Origin: Halorubrum sp. GN11_10-6_MGM
Lineage (GTDB): Archaea; Halobacteriota; Halobacteria; Halobacteriales; Haloferacaceae
DNA: 36,601 nucleotides
Assembly: GCF_005435165.1 (NCBI RefSeq)
Contig: NZ_SGUC01000032.1
Coordinates: 1 to 36,601 of the forward strand
Direction: 5' to 3'
The position numbers and the translations under genes were made by a program. The notes below the pieces were generated by a model that saw nothing but the letters and a program-made list of their open reading frames with translations, was not told the DNA's origin and did no database searches. Shown here one piece after another: positions 4,294 through 28,549 of this stretch (position 1 is its first letter; each line of letters begins with the position of its first letter).

Positions 4294-4407
4294 ATCGGCC
4301 GCGGCGGACCGCTTCCGGGGCGTTCCGGACCCCGATTCTTCGAATTTTCAGACCCCTGAGCGGCGCCGCCGTCGCGGGCGACCGCCCCCTCAGTCAGTCC
4401 GGATCGG

Positions 4408-4953
4408 TCAGTCGAGGTCGGGCGCCCGCTCGCCGGCCGGAATTACGATCTCCAGCCAGTTCTCCTCGGGCGGGAGCGGACAGGAGAACGTCTCGCTGTA
4501 CGCGCAGAACGGGCTGTACGCGAGGTTGAAGTCGACGGTGACGCGGTCCCCGTCGGCGAGTTCACTCTCCGGCTCCAGTTCCATGTACCGACCCTGGTGG
4601 TACGTCTGCTGACCGGTCGTCTTGTCGCGGAACGGGACGAAGACGGCGCCGTCGTCGCCCTCCTGTCGGTAGCCCGCGAGCGCGTGTTCCTCGCCGTCGA
4701 TCTCGAACTCGAACGTGACGATCCGGAGGTACCGAACCGGGTTGCTCGCGGTCGTCTCCATCTCGACCGGCTCGGGGTCGTCGTGGACCGTGACGGTCGA
4801 CTCGACGCGGTAGTCGGGATCAGGCGGGAAGTAGTCGAGTCCGTCGAACTCGTCGCGGTGTTCCGGCGGGATCGGCGACTGCGGGTGGTCGGCGAAGAAG
4901 TCGTCCTTCTCCCGGCGGTTCGCGCGGAGCCGCTCGGCGTAGTCGTCGCTCAT
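4408..4953 (-). CDS. DUF1684 family protein
   Basis: 181-residue soluble protein matching DUF1684 from start to end: an N-terminal RRxKDxFF-like segment (RREKDDFFADHPQSPIP), a central beta-rich part (LAGYRQEGDDGAVFVPFRDKTTG) and the characteristic C-terminal run FNLAYSPFCAYSETFSCPLPP with two conserved cysteines and the NPYC-like Tyr-Ser-Pro-Phe-Cys. The biochemical role of the family is unknown to me. Length agrees with stand-alone members. It is convergent with dpsA, and the 114 nt between them hold only short T-rich tracts that could terminate dpsA. Confidence 0.88.
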   Translation of the reverse strand: MSDDYAERLRANRREKDDFFADHPQSPIPPEHRDEFDGLDYFPPDPDYRVESTVTVHDDPEPVEMETTASNPVRYLRIVTFEFEIDGEEHALAGYRQEGDDGAVFVPFRDKTTGQQTYHQGRYMELEPESELADGDRVTVDFNLAYSPFCAYSETFSCPLPPEENWLEIVIPAGERAPDLD

Positions 4954-5020
4954 ACCCGGGCCGACGGGCGCCGGCGGTTTCAGACCCGCGGTTCGCTCGG
5001 CTTCCGGATCTGCGGCGGTC

Positions 5021-5722
5021 TCACAGCGCCTGGAGATCCGCGAGGCAGTCGTCGAGGTCCCGGTTCGACGTCGCTAGCGAGACGCCGTCGACGCGGGCGA
5101 GGTCGGCGGCGTGGTCCCAGAGGTCGCCGTCCTCGATCCCGTGGAGGACGACCGCGTTGGGGGTCGGGCTCACGACCCGGAGCGCGACGAGCGGCGACTC
5201 GCCGCGGGTCACCCGCGTGAACACGAGCGCGCGGTTGGTCGACTGGCCGTACAGCCGGTAGAAATCCTCGCTGGAGAGCCGCGTGATGGCTTGGATCGAG
5301 TCGATGACGGTGTGGCCGTTCACGTGGTCGTGGTCGCCGCGGACGACCTCCGTCGCGCCCATCGCCTCGTAGAACTCGTCGAGGGGGACCGCCGTCGAGT
5401 ACTCGCGGAGGTCGTGGACGATGTCGCTCTCGAACCCGGCAGAGAGCACCCGGGCGTGCTGCCGGATGCGCCCGCCGCCGCGACGCTCGTCGATGTTGAG
5501 CAGCCCCTCGACGGTGCGACGGACGACGCCGATCCCGGGGCTCTCGCGGCGACCGCTCTCGTAGTCGGAGACGACCGACGAGGAGACGCCGAGCTGGTCG
5601 GCCAGCTCCGTCTGCGAGACGTCGAAGTCCGTCCGCCACTTCCGGAGGGTCGCTCCGGGGTCGTCGCTCAGCGCAATTTCGCCGGCGATCCGGCGGGAGA
5701 GCTCCTCGCGTGCGTCGCTCAT
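5021..5722 (-). CDS. XRE-type helix-turn-helix regulator (archaeal COG1709-like)
   Basis: DNA-binding transcription regulator of 233 residues. Residues about 25-75 form an XRE/Cro HTH (DFDVSQTELADQLGVSSSVVSDYESGRRESPG), preceded by a short N-terminal helix. The rest is a separate domain (about 90-233) carrying DHDHVNGHTVIDSIQAI and NRALVFTRVTRGESPLVALRVVSPTP. This architecture matches archaeal predicted regulators that I associate with COG1709. No metal-binding cysteines and no membrane segment are seen. It is monocistronic, between the DUF1684 gene and a small regulator/membrane pair. The ligand and targets are unknown. Confidence 0.85.
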   Translation of the reverse strand: MSDAREELSRRIAGEIALSDDPGATLRKWRTDFDVSQTELADQLGVSSSVVSDYESGRRESPGIGVVRRTVEGLLNIDERRGGGRIRQHARVLSAGFESDIVHDLREYSTAVPLDEFYEAMGATEVVRGDHDHVNGHTVIDSIQAITRLSSEDFYRLYGQSTNRALVFTRVTRGESPLVALRVVSPTPNAVVLHGIEDGDLWDHAADLARVDGVSLATSNRDLDDCLADLQAL

Positions 5723-8773: not shown

Positions 8774-8823
8774 GGTCGCGCCTTTTCTGAAGCTATTTCC
8801 GCTCGCACGCCCACCAGCCACGC

Positions 8824-9609
8824 GTGTATCTCGGCGTCGACGAAGCAGGCAAGGGGCCCGCGCTCGGCCCGATGGTCGCGGCGGCGGTGATCGCCGATCC
8901 GGCGACGCTCCCCGCCGACGTGGACGATTCGAAGCGGGTCGCGCCGGCCAGACGCGAGGAGCTGGCCGGCGCCCTCAGCGGCGACCCGGACGTCGCCGTC
9001 GGCGTCGCCTTCGTCGAACCCGCCGAGATCGACCGGCCCGACACGGACATGAACACACTCACCGTCCGCGGACAGGCGCGTGCGGTGCGGATCGCACTTT
9101 CCGGGAGCGTCGCGGCGGGTATCGACGAGCCGATCCGCGTCGTCGCGGACGCGGGCGACACCAGCGAGGAGCGCTTCGCGCGGCGCCTCCGCGAGTTCGT
9201 CGAGACCGACGCCGGGAACGGGAACGACGCCGGGAACGGGAACGACGCCGGGAACGGGAACGACGCCGGGAACGGGAACGACGCCGGGAACGAGCCCCCG
9301 GAAAACGGCGAGCCGCTCCCGTCGATCGACGTGACGGCCGCCCACGGCGCCGATGAGGACGACCCCGTCGTCGGTGCCGCGAGCGTCGTCGCCAAGGTGG
9401 CCCGCGACGCCGCGATGGCCGAGATCGACGCGGAGTACACCGCGTACGACGAGCTCGGGAGCGGCTATCCGAGCGACCCGGTAACCCGGGCGTTCCTCCG
9501 CGAGTACGTCGCCGAGACGGGAGATCTCCCCGACTGTGCCCGCCGGTCGTGGGCGACCTGCGACGACGTCCTCGCGGCCGCCGAGCAGTCGGCGTTAGAC
9601 GAGTTCTGA
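8824..9609 (+). CDS. rnhB: ribonuclease HII
   Basis: Endonuclease that cuts RNA in RNA-DNA hybrids and removes misincorporated ribonucleotides, using two metal ions. The GTG start gives MYLGVDEAGKGPALGPM with catalytic Asp6 and Glu7; VDDSKRV, the third acidic region at RVVADAGD, and VVGAASVVAKVARD with further conserved residues follow. The C-terminus SGYPSDPVTRAFLREY is typical. At 261 residues it is longer than the archaeal norm of about 210-220, because an in-frame block of Asp-Ala-Gly-Asn-Gly-Asn repeats (residues 129-156) sits in a surface region between core motifs. The core motifs are intact so the enzyme should be active. It follows rps8e and may share its transcript. Confidence 0.95.
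   Translation: MYLGVDEAGKGPALGPMVAAAVIADPATLPADVDDSKRVAPARREELAGALSGDPDVAVGVAFVEPAEIDRPDTDMNTLTVRGQARAVRIALSGSVAAGIDEPIRVVADAGDTSEERFARRLREFVETDAGNGNDAGNGNDAGNGNDAGNGNDAGNEPPENGEPLPSIDVTAAHGADEDDPVVGAASVVAKVARDAAMAEIDAEYTAYDELGSGYPSDPVTRAFLREYVAETGDLPDCARRSWATCDDVLAAAEQSALDEF
9208..9291 (+). repeat. 18-nt tandem repeat inside rnhB
   Basis: Four exact copies of GACGCCGGGAACGGGAAC plus a 12-nt partial fifth copy. Each unit adds six residues (DAGNGN) in frame, so copy-number change would alter only linker length. Confidence 0.95.
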
Positions 9610-9643
9610 CCCCGGACAGAGGGCGGTACGCGGAACGTCGCCC

Positions 9644-10342
9644 TCAGAACAGCCCGGCGGCGAGACCGCCGACCGCGCCGACGAACGTCTCCCACACCGA
9701 GAAGCCGGTCGCGATCGCCAACACGGTGTCGGCGCCGAAGAAGGCGAAAAGCAGCGCGGAGCCGAGATGCGCGAGCCGCATGTCGACCCGCCCGGCGAAC
9801 GTGTGGAAAAAGTACGCGTTCGCGAGGCTCACCGGGATGATCGCGAGCATCTCGCCGAGCCAGATCGCGGAGGTCGCGCCGTACTGGACCGCCAGCCCGA
9901 TGGTGACGAGCTGGGTCTTGTCGCCGAACTCGCCGGTCGCGGTGAGCAGAAAAATCGGCAGGAAGCCGCCGAGCGACCCCGAGTAGCGGTCGAGCGCCCC
10001 CGGAAGCGAGAGCTCCTCGAACGCGGCGGACCCGTCGTCGCTCTCGGTCTCGGGGCTCGCTCCGCGCGGCGGTGCGGAGCGATACAGGGCCACCGCGAAG
10101 GCGAAGAACAGCGCCGCGGTCACGGCGTCGAGCGCGACCGGCGGGAGCGCCGACTGGAGCGCCCGCCCGAACGCGATCTCGACGGCGGTCCATCCGGCGA
10201 ACGCGGAGCCCGCGGCGGCGACGACGACCTTGGGGTCGTATCGCGTCGCGAGCCCGGCGATCATCAGTTGGACCTTCTCGCCGGGCAGCACCGCGAGCTG
10301 CGCCGCGAACGCGACGACGACGATCTCGGCGTAGCCGGTCAT
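9644..10342 (-). CDS. GDT1/TMEM165 (UPF0016) family cation transporter
   Basis: Integral membrane protein of 232 residues with two three-helix halves joined by an acidic loop (about 88-115). Family members exchange Ca2+ or Mn2+ and carry an E-x-G-D-[KR]-[ST] motif in each half. The second half has the canonical ATGEFGDKTQL (about 130-140), while the first has VLPGEKVQL, in which the leading Glu and the Asp are replaced. The substrate is most likely Mn2+, by family analogy. The gene is on the minus strand, 35 nt from the convergent rnhB stop. Confidence 0.9.
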   Translation of the reverse strand: MTGYAEIVVVAFAAQLAVLPGEKVQLMIAGLATRYDPKVVVAAAGSAFAGWTAVEIAFGRALQSALPPVALDAVTAALFFAFAVALYRSAPPRGASPETESDDGSAAFEELSLPGALDRYSGSLGGFLPIFLLTATGEFGDKTQLVTIGLAVQYGATSAIWLGEMLAIIPVSLANAYFFHTFAGRVDMRLAHLGSALLFAFFGADTVLAIATGFSVWETFVGAVGGLAAGLF

Positions 10343-22867: not shown

Positions 22868-24262
22868 ATGTCATACCACAAACGACGGCGTGACGTGTTG
22901 AAGACTGTCGGTGTCGCTGGCGCGATCGGACTCGCCGGCTGTTCAGGAAACGGTGGCGACGGCGGGGACGGTGGCGACGGAGGAGACGGCGGGGACGGTG
23001 GCGACGGCGGCGATGGCGGCGATGGCGGCGATGGCGGCGACGGCGGGTCCGGCGGCGGCGGTCCGGATCTGCTCACCGTCATCGGCTACCCCGAGAGCGG
23101 GATCCAGCTGTTCCGCGACTACTACGCCGCGTCGGACGGCGCGGAGGACATCCTCATTCCCGACGGCCTTCAGGACCCCTCGTTACCCGGACAGGTCGGC
23201 AACGCGATGGACAACGTCACCGGGACCGCTCCGGCGGCGGGCGGGCCGAACCAGGAGGCGTTCGCGACCCTGTATCAGGACGCCTACGACGAGACACCGG
23301 GCGTGTTCACCTCGCAGTCGTACGACTCCGCGGCGGCGCTGATCCTGGCGAACGTCGCGGCGGGCGAGAACAACGGGACCGCGATCCGCGACCAGCTCCG
23401 GCGCATCGCGAACCCCGACGGCACCTCGTACGGGCCCGGGGAGTTCATCGAGGCCGTCGAGGCGGCCGCCAACGGCGAAAACATCAACTACCAGGGCGCG
23501 TCGAGCGCCGTCAACTTCGACCAGAACGGCGACCCGGCGTCGGCGGCCTACCAGATCTGGGAGTTCGCGGGACAGGACGCCGACTCGGTCAGCGTCCAGG
23601 AGACGCAGAACTTCGAGGGCGCGAACCCCGACGGCGCCGGCCCCTCGGCCGACTCGTCGCCCGGCGGATTCGGCCGCGAGGTGAGCCTCGGGATCCTGCT
23701 GCCGGAGACCGGTGACCTCGCGTCGACGGGTCAGCCGATGATCCGCGCGGCGGAGATCCCGGCCCAGCAGGTCAACGACTCCGACCTCGACCTGACGGTG
23801 AACGCCCAGTTCGAGGACACGAACACCTCGCCCGACCAGGGGGTCAGCGGCGCCGAGTCCCTGATCAGTTCGGGCGTCCCCGCCGTCTGCGGGACCGCCT
23901 CCTCCGGCGTGAACGTCCCGGTCTGTACGGAGGCGCTCATCCCGAACGAGGTCGTCGGCTGCTCGCCGTCCAGCACCGCGCTGTCGGTGACGAACCTCGA
24001 CGACGACGACTACATCTTCCGGACCGCCCCGAGCGACCAGCTTCAGGGCCGGGTCATGGCCCAGGTCGCCTCCGAGCGCCTCGGCGCCTCGACCGCCGCG
24101 ACGCTGTACGTGAACAACGACTACGGCCAGCAGCTCTCGAACCGGTTCAGCGAGGTCTTCGAGAACACGTTCGACGGCACGGTGTACGACCAGATCAGCT
24201 TCAACATCGGCTCGTCGTCGTACTCCAACGTCGTCGAACAGGCGCTCACGAGCGGGAACTGA
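22868..24262 (+). CDS. branched-chain-amino-acid-type ABC substrate-binding lipoprotein, apparently circularly permuted
   Basis: 464 residues, secreted and lipid-anchored. A Tat-like KRRRDVLK and lipobox LAGC (Cys25) are followed by a (GGD)10 linker (29-58). The family is type I periplasmic-binding (LivJ/AmiC-like), but the order is inverted. Residues 66 to about 250 (PDLLTVIGYPESGIQLF through YQIWEFAGQD) are normally the C-terminal half. After a Gly/Ser/Pro linker (about 251-269) comes VSLGILLPETGDLASTG and the rest of the normally N-terminal half, ending at YSNVVEQALTSGN and a stop. The break falls between segments that adjoin in canonical proteins, so the fold can be complete. The gene converges on livHMGF and should serve it; the ATG is set by the TATA box 28 nt upstream. 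Confidence 0.9.
   Translation: MSYHKRRRDVLKTVGVAGAIGLAGCSGNGGDGGDGGDGGDGGDGGDGGDGGDGGDGGDGGSGGGGPDLLTVIGYPESGIQLFRDYYAASDGAEDILIPDGLQDPSLPGQVGNAMDNVTGTAPAAGGPNQEAFATLYQDAYDETPGVFTSQSYDSAAALILANVAAGENNGTAIRDQLRRIANPDGTSYGPGEFIEAVEAAANGENINYQGASSAVNFDQNGDPASAAYQIWEFAGQDADSVSVQETQNFEGANPDGAGPSADSSPGGFGREVSLGILLPETGDLASTGQPMIRAAEIPAQQVNDSDLDLTVNAQFEDTNTSPDQGVSGAESLISSGVPAVCGTASSGVNVPVCTEALIPNEVVGCSPSSTALSVTNLDDDDYIFRTAPSDQLQGRVMAQVASERLGASTAATLYVNNDYGQQLSNRFSEVFENTFDGTVYDQISFNIGSSSYSNVVEQALTSGN
22952..23041 (+). repeat. 9-nt tandem repeat encoding (Gly-Gly-Asp)10
   Basis: Ten near-identical 9-nt units (GGNGGNGAY), differing only at third codon positions. They form the flexible tether between the lipid-anchored cysteine and the binding domain. 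Slippage by whole units would keep the frame. Confidence 0.95.
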
Positions 24263-24445: not shown

Positions 24446-25150
24446 CTATCCGCCGAGGAACTCCCGCCGGACCTCCTCGTCGTTCAGCAGGACGGTGCCC
24501 TCGTCCTCGAACCGGTTCTGCCCGTTCGCGAGCACGTAGCCGCGGTCACAGCGTCGCAGCGCCTCCTTCGCGTTCTGTTCGACCATCAGGATCGCCGTCC
24601 CCGTCTCGTTGATCTCGTCGATCTTGTCGAACATCTCGTCGACGAGGTCGGGCGCGAGCCCCGCGCTCGGCTCGTCGAGCAACAGGAGCTCTGGGTCGAG
24701 CATCAGCGCGCGGCCCATCGCGAGCATCTGCCGCTGGCCGCCGCTCAGCGTCCCCGCCTGCTGGTCCTTCCGCTCCTCGAGTATCGGGAACCGGTCGTAC
24801 ACCTTTCTGAGCTCCTCCTGCGGGACCTCGTCGAGGATGTACGCGCCCATCTCGAGGTTCTCTTCGACGTCGAGCTCCGCGAAGACGTTCTCGCTCTGGG
24901 GCACGTACCCCAACCCCTTGTGGATCACGTCCTCCGGCTTCGTCCCGCTGATGTCCTCGTCGTCGAACGTCACCGTGCCGCCCATGTGCGTCGTCAGTCC
25001 GAACACCGACTTCATCACGGTGGACTTGCCGGCCCCGTTCGGCCCGACGATGGTGACGTACTCCTCGTCGTCGACGTCGAGGTCGACGTCGGTGAGGATC
25101 TGTAGGTCCCCGTAGCCGGCGTCCAGGTCGCGGACTTCGAGGAGGCTCAT
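24446..25150 (-). CDS. livF: branched-chain amino acid ABC transporter ATPase LivF
   Basis: Nucleotide-binding subunit, 234 residues. Walker A GPNGAGKST (about 37-45), Q-loop, signature LSGGQRQML and Walker B LLLLDEPSAGLAP are all present, with the switch histidine region reading LMVEQN as is usual in LivF. It is the last gene of livH-livM-livG-livF and overlaps livG by ATGA. It probably pairs with LivG to power the LivHM channel. Substrate may be branched-chain or other amino acids; the sequence does not decide. Confidence 0.96.
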   Translation of the reverse strand: MSLLEVRDLDAGYGDLQILTDVDLDVDDEEYVTIVGPNGAGKSTVMKSVFGLTTHMGGTVTFDDEDISGTKPEDVIHKGLGYVPQSENVFAELDVEENLEMGAYILDEVPQEELRKVYDRFPILEERKDQQAGTLSGGQRQMLAMGRALMLDPELLLLDEPSAGLAPDLVDEMFDKIDEINETGTAILMVEQNAKEALRRCDRGYVLANGQNRFEDEGTVLLNDEEVRREFLGG

Positions 25151-26070
25151 ACCTCACCCCCGAGGTAGGCCTCGATGACCTCCTCGCTCTCTTTGATCTC
25201 CTCCGGCGTCCCGTCCTTCAGGATCCGGCCTTGGTGCATGACGATGACCCGCTCGCAGTTGTTCATGATGAGGTCCATGTCGTGTTCCACGATGAGGAAG
25301 GTGTACCCCCGCTCGCGCAGCTCGTGGATGTGTTCGAGCAGCCGCTTCTCCAGCGACGGGTTGACCCCCGCGAACGGCTCGTCGAGGAGCAGCACGTCGG
25401 GGTCGGTCAGGAGCGCCCGCGCCATCTCCAGCAGCTTCCGCTGGCCGCCGGAGAGGTTCCCCGCGTACTCGTCGGCGAGGTGGTCGATCTCGAAGAAGTC
25501 GAGCACCTCCCAGACGCGGTCGAGCTGTTCGGTCTCCTGCTCTTGGACGGACCGGCGGGTGACCGGCATGATCGACCGCCACAGGGACTCGCCGACCTGT
25601 CCCTTCGGCGCGAGCATCATGTTCTCGAGAACGGTCATCTCCTCCAGCTCGCGGGCGATCTGGAACGTCCGCGCGAGACCCCGATTGGCGATCTCGTGGG
25701 GCTGGAAGCCGGTGATGTCCTCGCCGTTGAACCGGACGGTCCCTTCCGTGGGATCGAGCATCCCGGTGATGAGGTTGAACGTGGTCGACTTCCCGGCCCC
25801 GTTCGGACCGATGAGCCCGGTGAGCGTCCCCTCCTCGACGTCGAAGCTCACGTCGTCGACGGCGGTGATCCCGCCGAACTCCTTCCGCAGTCCCTCGACC
25901 TCGAGGGGGGCGTACCGGGCGTCGTCGCCGGCCCGCGTCTCGGGGTCGTCCTCGACCAGTTCGGTCAGGTCGGTCGAGGCGTCGCTCGCGCTCGGTGGCG
26001 TATCCTCTCCGGTCGCCGCCCCTTCCGCCGGGGCCGACTCGCTCGCGGGGGAGTCGTCGGTCTCGCTCAC
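25147..26070 (-). CDS. livG: branched-chain amino acid ABC transporter ATPase LivG
   Basis: Partner ATPase of LivF, 307 residues. Walker A GPNGAGKST, LivG-type insertion with LARTFQIARELEEMTVLENMMLA, signature LSGGQRKLLEMA, Walker B LLLDEPFAGVNP and switch VEHDMDLIM. Residues 1 to about 58 form an acidic Ala/Ser/Asp extension absent from typical bacterial LivG (about 255 residues). Four-base overlaps with livM and livF show a tight operon. Confidence 0.96.
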   Translation of the reverse strand: MSETDDSPASESAPAEGAATGEDTPPSASDASTDLTELVEDDPETRAGDDARYAPLEVEGLRKEFGGITAVDDVSFDVEEGTLTGLIGPNGAGKSTTFNLITGMLDPTEGTVRFNGEDITGFQPHEIANRGLARTFQIARELEEMTVLENMMLAPKGQVGESLWRSIMPVTRRSVQEQETEQLDRVWEVLDFFEIDHLADEYAGNLSGGQRKLLEMARALLTDPDVLLLDEPFAGVNPSLEKRLLEHIHELRERGYTFLIVEHDMDLIMNNCERVIVMHQGRILKDGTPEEIKESEEVIEAYLGGEV

Positions 26071-27440
26071 CGTTCGTCACCTCCGTCGGCGGCGGCCGGG
26101 TTCCCGGTCGACCCGCCGCCTCCCGGCCGGGCGAGGTCGACGCTGGACGCCGTCTCCTTGCGGTGGCCGAGCAGCCCCTCCGGCCGATTGTGCATCAGCC
26201 AGATCAGCACCACGCCCATGATCACCAGCCGCAGCTGGCTGACGCTGTCGAGCGTGTACAGGACGAACGGCATCGGGTCGAGCGAGGCGAACCCGGCCAT
26301 CGCCTCGCCGAAGTTCCGCGGCGCGTCGCCCAGCTCGAAGGCCGTCTCGACGAGGTTCTTGAAGTACCGCGGCCCCTCGTACAACACCCCGGCGAAGATC
26401 GCGCCGCCGAGGAAGCTCCCGGTGTTCGACCCCGCGCCGCCGATGATCAGCGCGATCCAGATGAAGAAGGTGATGTTCGGCCGGAACGACGGCGGCGTGA
26501 TGCTCCCGCGGCCGGAGTACCAGAGGATACCGCCGAGCCCCATCAGCGCGGCGCCGAGCACGAACGCCGTGAGCTTGAACCGGTCGGTGTCCTTGCCGAG
26601 GGCGTTCGCGACGTCCTCGTCCTCGCGGATCGCCTTCAGCACGCGGCCGAACGGCGACTTTCCGGTCCGAGAGAGCAGCAGGTAGAACAGCCCGACGCCG
26701 ACGATCAGGACGACCCCGTAGAGGAGCCCGTCCAGCACCGGCTTGGGGTTGTTCGGGATGACGCTCGCCTCGACGAACGAGACGAACCCGAGGTACGGAT
26801 CCCAGAGGAACAGGGCCCGGAGCAGCGCCTCGAGCGGGTTCGTGTAGTTCAGGATGAGTCCGCCCCCGCCGCCGAGTCCGACCGTGTCCGCCGCCGGGTC
26901 GAAACTGACCACCCAGAGGTCGATCGTGTCCGGCACGGTGAACGTCTGGAAGGTCCGGGACATCATGGTGAACCGGACGATCTCGGAGAACGCCACCGTG
27001 ACGATCGCGAGGTAGTCCGCCCGGAGCCGGAGCGCGGGCAGCGCGACGAGCAGCCCGAACAGGCCCGCGATCACGACGCCGGCGATGACGCCGACGAAGA
27101 GCGGGAGGCCGAACCCGCCGACCTGCGCGGCGCCGTCGCCCACCGGCGGCTTCGAGACCAGCGCGGTCACGTAGATACCGATTCCCATGAAGCCGACGAT
27201 GCCGATGTTGAACAGCCCGGTGTACCCCCAGTGGAGGTTCAGCGCTAGCGCCATCATGCCGAACACGCCGACGTAGAACGTGAGGTTCGCGATCGAGTTC
27301 AGCTGCCCGCGGAGCCCGTATCCGAAGGCGACGCCGGCGAGGATGTACGCCAGATAGAGGGCGCCGAGGACGGCGAGCACGAGCGTCACGTCGCGCTCGA
27401 AGAGCCCCTCGAACCGCCCGCGAAGGTCGCTTGTACTCAT
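26067..27440 (-). CDS. livM: branched-chain amino acid ABC transporter permease LivM
   Basis: Polytopic permease, 457 residues. Conserved LivM segments include NLHWGYTGLFNIGIVGFMGIG, the later ALKAIREDEDVANALGKD coupling helix region and MGLGGILWYSG. The protein has about ten membrane helices and a large loop (about 165-225) containing a short glycine-rich tract. The C-terminal Gly/Pro-rich tail is probably disordered. It overlaps livH and livG by four bases each. Confidence 0.94.
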   Translation of the reverse strand: MSTSDLRGRFEGLFERDVTLVLAVLGALYLAYILAGVAFGYGLRGQLNSIANLTFYVGVFGMMALALNLHWGYTGLFNIGIVGFMGIGIYVTALVSKPPVGDGAAQVGGFGLPLFVGVIAGVVIAGLFGLLVALPALRLRADYLAIVTVAFSEIVRFTMMSRTFQTFTVPDTIDLWVVSFDPAADTVGLGGGGGLILNYTNPLEALLRALFLWDPYLGFVSFVEASVIPNNPKPVLDGLLYGVVLIVGVGLFYLLLSRTGKSPFGRVLKAIREDEDVANALGKDTDRFKLTAFVLGAALMGLGGILWYSGRGSITPPSFRPNITFFIWIALIIGGAGSNTGSFLGGAIFAGVLYEGPRYFKNLVETAFELGDAPRNFGEAMAGFASLDPMPFVLYTLDSVSQLRLVIMGVVLIWLMHNRPEGLLGHRKETASSVDLARPGGGGSTGNPAAADGGDER

Positions 27441-28549
27441 GCTGTGGTCCTCCCGCTGAAGATGCCTTCAGGCTTGAATAACAGAATCACGATCATCACC
27501 ATGAACGCGGCCGCGCGACCGAACTCCGATGGAATCCAGATCACGGAGACCGAGGCGGTGAGGCCGATGATGATCCCGCCGCCGATCGCGCCGTAGATCG
27601 ACCCGATCCCGCCGAGGATCACCGCGGCGAACACGAGCAGCAGCAGCAGCCACCCGTCGTTGAACCCGAGCGTTCCCTTCCAGAGGACGAACATGTAGCC
27701 CGCGACGCCCGTCAGGCCCGCGCCGACGATCCACGTCGTGCGGATGACCTGCTCGGTCGGGATTCCGGTGATCCGCGCGAGGTCCTCGTTGTCGGACATC
27801 GCGCGCATCGCCTTCCCGAGCTTCGTCCGCTGGAGCAGCAGGTGGACGCCGAGCATGAGCCCGGCCGCGACGACGATGAGACTGATGTCGTGGGCCGTCA
27901 CCCGGAACGTGCCGTCGATCGCGGGGACGTTTATCCGCGGGACCGACCCCGCCGCGGTCGTCCCCCGGACGCCGGCCCCGTAGACGAACTGGAGCAGGTA
28001 CCGGAGCGCGAACGCGACCCCGATACTGGTTATCAGCAGCGCGATACCGCTCTCGTCGCGGATCGGCCGGTAGACGAACCGGTCGATAGCCAGCGCCAAG
28101 ACGATCGCCGCGACGCCCGCCACGAGAGCCCCGAGGACGACGGCGATCGGCGCGGTCGTGACGCCGATACCGAGCGCGCCGCCGAACACCGACCCGCCCG
28201 CGCCGACGAGCAGGAGCGCCCCGACGCTGTTCTCGCCGATCCCGGCGATCAGGTAGCTCGCGCCCATCCCGGCGAACGCCCCGCTCGTGAGGTAGTCGCC
28301 GTGCGCGAAGTTCGCGAAATTGAGAATGCTGTACGTCATCGAGAGTCCGATCCCCGCCAGACCGATGATCAGCCCCCGGAGTAGACCGTCCCAGACGAGG
28401 GACGCGAGGCTGCTGATCTGAATCCCCCCGGACGCGAGCCCGGTCACGAGCGACCACACCATCCACAGGGCCACGAGTATGACCCCGATGGCGAGCGGTT
28501 CCTCGCTGAGGGTACGGCGGTATCGAACGAACGTTTCAGAGACACTCAC
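27437..28549 (-). CDS. livH: branched-chain amino acid ABC transporter permease LivH
   Basis: First gene of the operon, 370 residues with eight or so membrane segments. The LivH signature GIGLSMTYSILNFANFAHGDYLTSGAF is clear, and the coupling region reads KAMRAMSDNEDLARITGI. GTG start chosen on frame openness and on a TATA-like CTTATAC about 35 nt upstream. Residues 1-40 precede the first strong helix and are more variable than the rest. Confidence 0.95.
   Translation of the reverse strand: MSVSETFVRYRRTLSEEPLAIGVILVALWMVWSLVTGLASGGIQISSLASLVWDGLLRGLIIGLAGIGLSMTYSILNFANFAHGDYLTSGAFAGMGASYLIAGIGENSVGALLLVGAGGSVFGGALGIGVTTAPIAVVLGALVAGVAAIVLALAIDRFVYRPIRDESGIALLITSIGVAFALRYLLQFVYGAGVRGTTAAGSVPRINVPAIDGTFRVTAHDISLIVVAAGLMLGVHLLLQRTKLGKAMRAMSDNEDLARITGIPTEQVIRTTWIVGAGLTGVAGYMFVLWKGTLGFNDGWLLLLLVFAAVILGGIGSIYGAIGGGIIIGLTASVSVIWIPSEFGRAAAFMVMIVILLFKPEGIFSGRTTA

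Follow-up and report, generated by a model that had tools for sequence, protein, structure and literature searches.

A circularly permuted LivJ-like binding lipoprotein of haloarchaeal importers and its probable repeated origin

In Halorubrum sp. GN11_10-6_MGM, the Peripla_BP_6 domain of a solute-binding Tat lipoprotein is circularly permuted. Its gene was analysed in a 36,601-nucleotide stretch of DNA (contig NZ_SGUC01000032.1), referred to here as the window. The canonical C-terminal half of the domain comes first in the chain, the canonical N-terminal half comes last, and a new linker connects the old termini. Probably the product retains an intact bilobed type I fold and works in an importer in its permuted form, the permutation having arisen at least three times and one of the lineages (A, the window's own) having later been re-permuted to give a form designated type E.

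The reading frame is open and reads exactly as the original prediction had it, with a Tat/lipobox signal (RRR..GLAGC, read by eye), a (GGD) tether, and the two segments in the claimed order (Table 1). The domain opens with PDLLTVIGYPESGIQLF at residue 66, a Gly/Ser/Pro/Asp-rich stretch is found at about residues 253-270 where a Gly/Ser/Pro linker between the old termini had been proposed, VSLGILLPETG starts at residue 272, and the C-terminus is YSNVVEQALTSGN. Profile PF13458 (Peripla_BP_6) matches the protein above the curated cut-off (E=4.6e-30) in two stretches. The best stretch aligns residues 271-463 with profile positions 1-190, and the remainder of the profile precedes it; the matches thus run in swapped rather than uninterrupted canonical order, and the permuted reading stands. 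Aligned separately and pairwise with canonical relatives, the halves likewise match one by one in exchanged positions, and in the relative no more than 3-4 residues separate them. The canonical junction reads ...SYSSQLENAL-DDD-PDLLFVIGFPQSGIQLF..., and across the cut ...SYSSQLENAL-DDD-PDLLFVIGFPQSGIQLFRD...; the window's ends at the cut are ...SYSNVVEQALTSGN(stop) and GGGG-PDLLTVIGYPESGIQLFRD.... Because these junction sequences match up, the cut can be placed exactly, and the predicted junction of the two halves proved correct. No duplicated or missing homologous segment was evident in the comparison with canonical relatives. A natural, in-frame circular permutation that keeps the export signal is thereby confirmed, its order being conserved in relatives. 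The (GGD)n tether varies in length among relatives. A Tat/lipobox signal followed by this Gly-Asp-rich module is also carried by about 20 other ORFs of the same genome (e.g. G000:C135:53591-53815 and G000:C117:13134-13361).

Table 1. Coordinates of the permuted gene, its importer neighbours, and related genes in other genomes (window positions unless a locus is named)
Feature	Position	Strand	Basis or remark
Binding-protein ORF	22868-24262	+	open; 464 residues encoded
Tat-type signal peptide and lipobox (LAGC; lipid-attachment Cys25)	22868-22942	+	sequence, read by eye
(GGD)n Gly-rich tether, lipidated Cys to new N-terminus	22943-23062	+	sequence
Canonical C-terminal half, now first (residues 66-252)	23063-23623	+	alignments, profile, AF2 strand E4-8
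New linker, old C-terminus to old N-terminus (residues 253-270, ~18 aa)	23624-23677	+	relatives' alignments, model
Canonical N-terminal half, now last (residues 271-464 plus stop)	23678-24262	+	PF13458 profile 1-190
LivF-type ABC ATPase, convergent with binding-protein gene	24446-25150	-	PF00005; best NCBIfam LivF below curated cut-off; synteny
LivG-type ABC ATPase	25147-26070	-	PF00005 and PF12399
LivM-type permease	26067-27440	-	PF02653
LivH-type permease	27437-28549	-	PF02653
Type E genes	L225:7170-8501 (G392); L224:6726-8060 (G384); L226:7396-8841 (G325)		
Tandem permuted copies	L181:7380-8705 and 8813-10192 (G160); L262:2799-4205 and 4317-5630 (G340)		

An AlphaFold2 model built from 54 permuted sequences (pLDDT 90.7, pTM 0.86) replaced an earlier one built from 13 rows (pLDDT 73) and predicts that the permuted chain forms one well-packed single fold. 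In the model the new chain opens with a strand (E4-8) and closes with a helix (H389-397); it is therefore a helix-to-strand loop that has been cut. Judged from LivJ-type folds, this loop belongs to the second lobe and faces away from the ligand cleft. The linker is modelled as a coil between strands E177-186 and E206-214. In a Foldseek search with the model, LivJ, LivK and leucine-binding proteins came out on top with TM scores of 0.37-0.47 over only ~195 columns, the search being order-bound and the alignments spanning about half the chain; such short alignments are to be expected of a permuted topology if the solved structures listed all have another order. None of the solved structures among the PDB matches listed aligned full-length in order. 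In LivJ-type proteins the old N- and C-termini lie in different lobes. Joining them should add a fourth crossing between the lobes, as in the treponemal protein TpMglB-2 (PMC4990184), and would leave lobe II, rather than lobe I, attached to the membrane tether. Hinge order or docking may be altered as well.

The permuted protein is not a unique case: it is frequent within the genus and found widely across the class. The window's order, with the same cut loop, occurs in about 168 of the 391 sampled Halobacteria genomes (hand count of the search table). When Halorubrum relatives were surveyed, as had been proposed, nearly all genomes of the genus gave a single colinear match over both halves. 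Colinear permuted matches are also present in Haloferax, Halogeometricum, Halorussus, Haloglomus, Natrialba, Natronorubrum and others, and canonical and permuted copies coexist in some single genomes. The listed matches outside Halobacteria in the same phylum were all canonical, as were the bacterial matches listed, and a plasmid search found no close copy of the permuted gene. Within the genus, dN/dS is ~0.16-0.20 over the domain and similar in both halves (~0.14-0.26 for the halves themselves); the permuted gene is under purifying selection in both. Two irregular copies were encountered. An A-type gene (G030, L022:1489-3318) has a frame change near its end, overruns the usual stop and loses its last residues. 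A B-type permuted gene (G017, L106:7155-8551) is split by a ~1.4 kb insert, probably a mobile element, which has its own ORF and is followed by the remainder of the gene.

The importer genes beside the binding-protein gene are of livFGMH type, downstream of and convergent to it. The same convergent arrangement, facing LivF-LivG-LivM-LivH, is seen at most canonical loci and, a few rearranged loci excepted, at all loci of types A, B, C, D and E with enough flank. Since canonical and permuted forms, which are about 50% identical in each half, share this context, the permuted protein would do the job of its canonical relatives. We infer that the gene encodes a working extracytoplasmic binding lipoprotein that delivers solute to the adjacent LivHMGF-type importer, and that an amino-acid-like solute is bound by the ordinary Venus-flytrap mechanism. 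Importers of branched-chain amino acids and of urea give the best NCBIfam matches, none of which reaches its curated cut-off. A gamma-glutamyltransferase gene (TIGR00066; 28712-30370, minus strand) lies beside the importer in the window and recurs next to one B-type and one canonical locus; it is a possible hint at gamma-glutamyl or amino-acid substrates.

For the binding-protein tree, the halves were restored to canonical order before alignment. Permuted forms appear in four places (A; B; C; D) with four changes in all bootstraps, and each half alone likewise needs four changes. A single permuted clade was rejected on this tree (AU p=0.016), and so was a clade of A and B (AU p=0.041); taken from the binding-protein tree alone, these rejections are modest. 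Because the permuted sequence itself might bias that tree, an independent tree was computed for the adjacent LivF, LivG, LivM and LivH (70 rows and 1275 columns; quick search). It requires five changes, and in it B falls next to the same canonical clade, fully supported. A single clade uniting the permuted-type operons was rejected (p=4e-43), as were A with B (p=3e-48) and B with C (p=1e-9). Groups A, B and C, and with them the pairs tested, were named after the tree had been seen. Group D is one sequence and its placement is unsure. With the permuted forms polyphyletic in both trees, permutation at the same loop most likely arose independently in at least three lineages (A, B and C; possibly also D).

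A second permutation, type E, was revealed by a multi-segment ORF search of the fetched loci. Three of the 391 genomes (G325, G384 and G392) have it, the chain running N-half(36-192) - C-half - linker - N-half(1-34); G325 deviates slightly. The two halves meet again as they do in canonical proteins, and the A-type linker is kept (...FESDNPDGAGEMADEGPGGFDRT...). The new ends fall between the parts that correspond to model helix H221-239 and model strand E245-253; the cut is again in a helix-to-strand loop, this time of the other lobe (lobe I). Type E is nested inside clade A, in two places, on the binding-protein tree, and on the LivFGMH tree its operons adjoin SHRA6/G260-type and Haloglomus operons. 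Most likely, lineage A was later re-permuted by a cut in lobe I to give type E. Recurrent permutation at the same importer locus, with at least three events at a single loop in one lobe, plus one or two re-permutations at a second such loop in the other, is considered likely.

Permutation by duplication, a route described in PMC3320104, appears to fit these genes best. A tandem duplication followed by fusion would give signal-N1-C1-linker-N2-C2. An in-frame deletion would then remove the first part of copy 1 (N1), and an early stop would cut off the end of copy 2 (C2); with these parts trimmed from the fused pair, the signal peptide would be kept. The Tat/lipobox-tether module common in the genome could aid such in-frame fusions. 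Adjacent A-type copies ~110 bp apart in two genomes (G160 and G340) and the nested type E support the duplication route. No fused tandem intermediate (N-C-N-C) was detected in the loci examined by the multi-segment ORF search. Long open frames in G011, G050 and G161 were considered as tandem fusions and are unlikely to be such, each having only one full-length match. One copy of each tandem pair carries a Tat-like signal without the lipobox cysteine, and copies of this kind may be released instead of tethered.

Several other explanations were weighed against this reading. The window sits on a draft assembly of 200 contigs, and the swapped order might reflect a misjoin or two genes annotated as one. 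The chance of such an artefact is negligible: misassembly is excluded because dozens of independently assembled genomes from independently sequenced species, single-contig genomes included, show the identical order in single colinear full-length matches, and divergence across the junctions is synonymous-biased. It is also conceivable that the permuted protein has left transport and become a sensor or scavenging lipoprotein. Type I folds serve as sensors elsewhere, and the gene is convergent to the livHMGF operon and lies outside it. The canonical relatives, however, have the same convergent arrangement, and ~84 positions, spread over both halves, are identical across the permuted and canonical forms, making a departure from transport very unlikely.

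The number of events leaves more room for debate. Reversals, or an exchange of genes among operons, could give the false appearance of several origins, and there may have been one ancient permutation, with the canonical forms representing later reversals or with permuted genes carried from operon to operon through recombination or transfer. Groups A, B, C and D are all cut at the same loop, type E shows that re-permutation can restore the original N-C junction, and canonical and permuted copies share some genomes. Against this, a single gain would require seven (binding protein) or nine (Liv) exact reversals to identical ends in place of four or five gains. The binding-protein and transporter trees agree on separate places for A and B, so gene exchange alone is insufficient. 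The linkers also differ by group (A, ...GPSADSSPGGLGRE...; B, ...NATAADPVGVDEFEA...; C, ...IPQPEPSGSGSDAGRT...) and look unrelated by eye. One ancient event is thus rather unlikely. As for the route, the gene might have split into two ORFs that later fused the other way round, with no tandem duplication; two halves of almost the same size, divided at a single loop, would suit this. It is nonetheless quite improbable, as no paired half-genes occur in the fetched loci, full-length copies are known to lie next to each other in tandem, and retention of the signal peptide is explained by duplication.

Natural circular permutation is usually viewed as rare, ancient and one-off, and is known from structure comparison. 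In the haloarchaea, permuted, re-permuted and normal versions of one gene coexist at 40-70% identity, sharing one type of operon context, and tandem copies lie close by. Such coexistence makes the mechanism, the tolerated cut sites, and the effects of the predicted anchor shift and fourth hinge testable in culturable Haloferax and Halorubrum. If recurrent permutation is true, nature has in effect replicated an experiment in chain topology on a functioning binding protein. The case also carries a warning that profile-based annotation splits or truncates permuted proteins.

The closest known systems are the canonical haloarchaeal LivJ-like proteins (PF13458; e.g. P0002 from L096), which are ~40-60% identical to the window protein in each half, have conserved residues in common with it, and have convergent livFGMH neighbours at most loci. 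Unlike it, they keep the normal N-to-C order, and 3-4 residues join their halves at the point where the domain of the window protein starts and stops. The E. coli LivJ and leucine-binding protein (2lbp, 1z15) and the Brucella homologue 4n0q are the best matches by both structure and sequence, each over about half the chain. Among the binding proteins of ABC importers, a natural permutation family is known in the glycine betaine-binding proteins (PMC2395249), but these have another fold class and ligand, identity is below 24%, and the relation is visible only in structures. The original prediction knew of no natural example in haloarchaeal importers, and no prior report of one, or of a binding-protein gene permuted more than once, was found in the open-access literature. 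The type I fold does have a precedent in Treponema. Tp0684 (TpMglB-2) of T. pallidum is a naturally permuted, tethered type I binding protein in which a fourth lobe crossing is needed, and it has been proposed as 'type Ic / cluster Bc', found in treponemes and Gram-positive bacteria (PMC4990184). Both it and the window protein are natural permutations of a tethered type I binding protein. TpMglB-2, however, belongs to the sugar-binding MglB family and has both ends in the N lobe, whereas the window protein matches LivJ-like rather than MglB-type proteins and is cut, by comparison with LivJ-type folds, in the other lobe, at about position 190 of the PF13458 profile. Thus, natural permutation of a type I binding protein was already known; what appears to be new is the haloarchaeal variant, with its probable and unusual recurrence.
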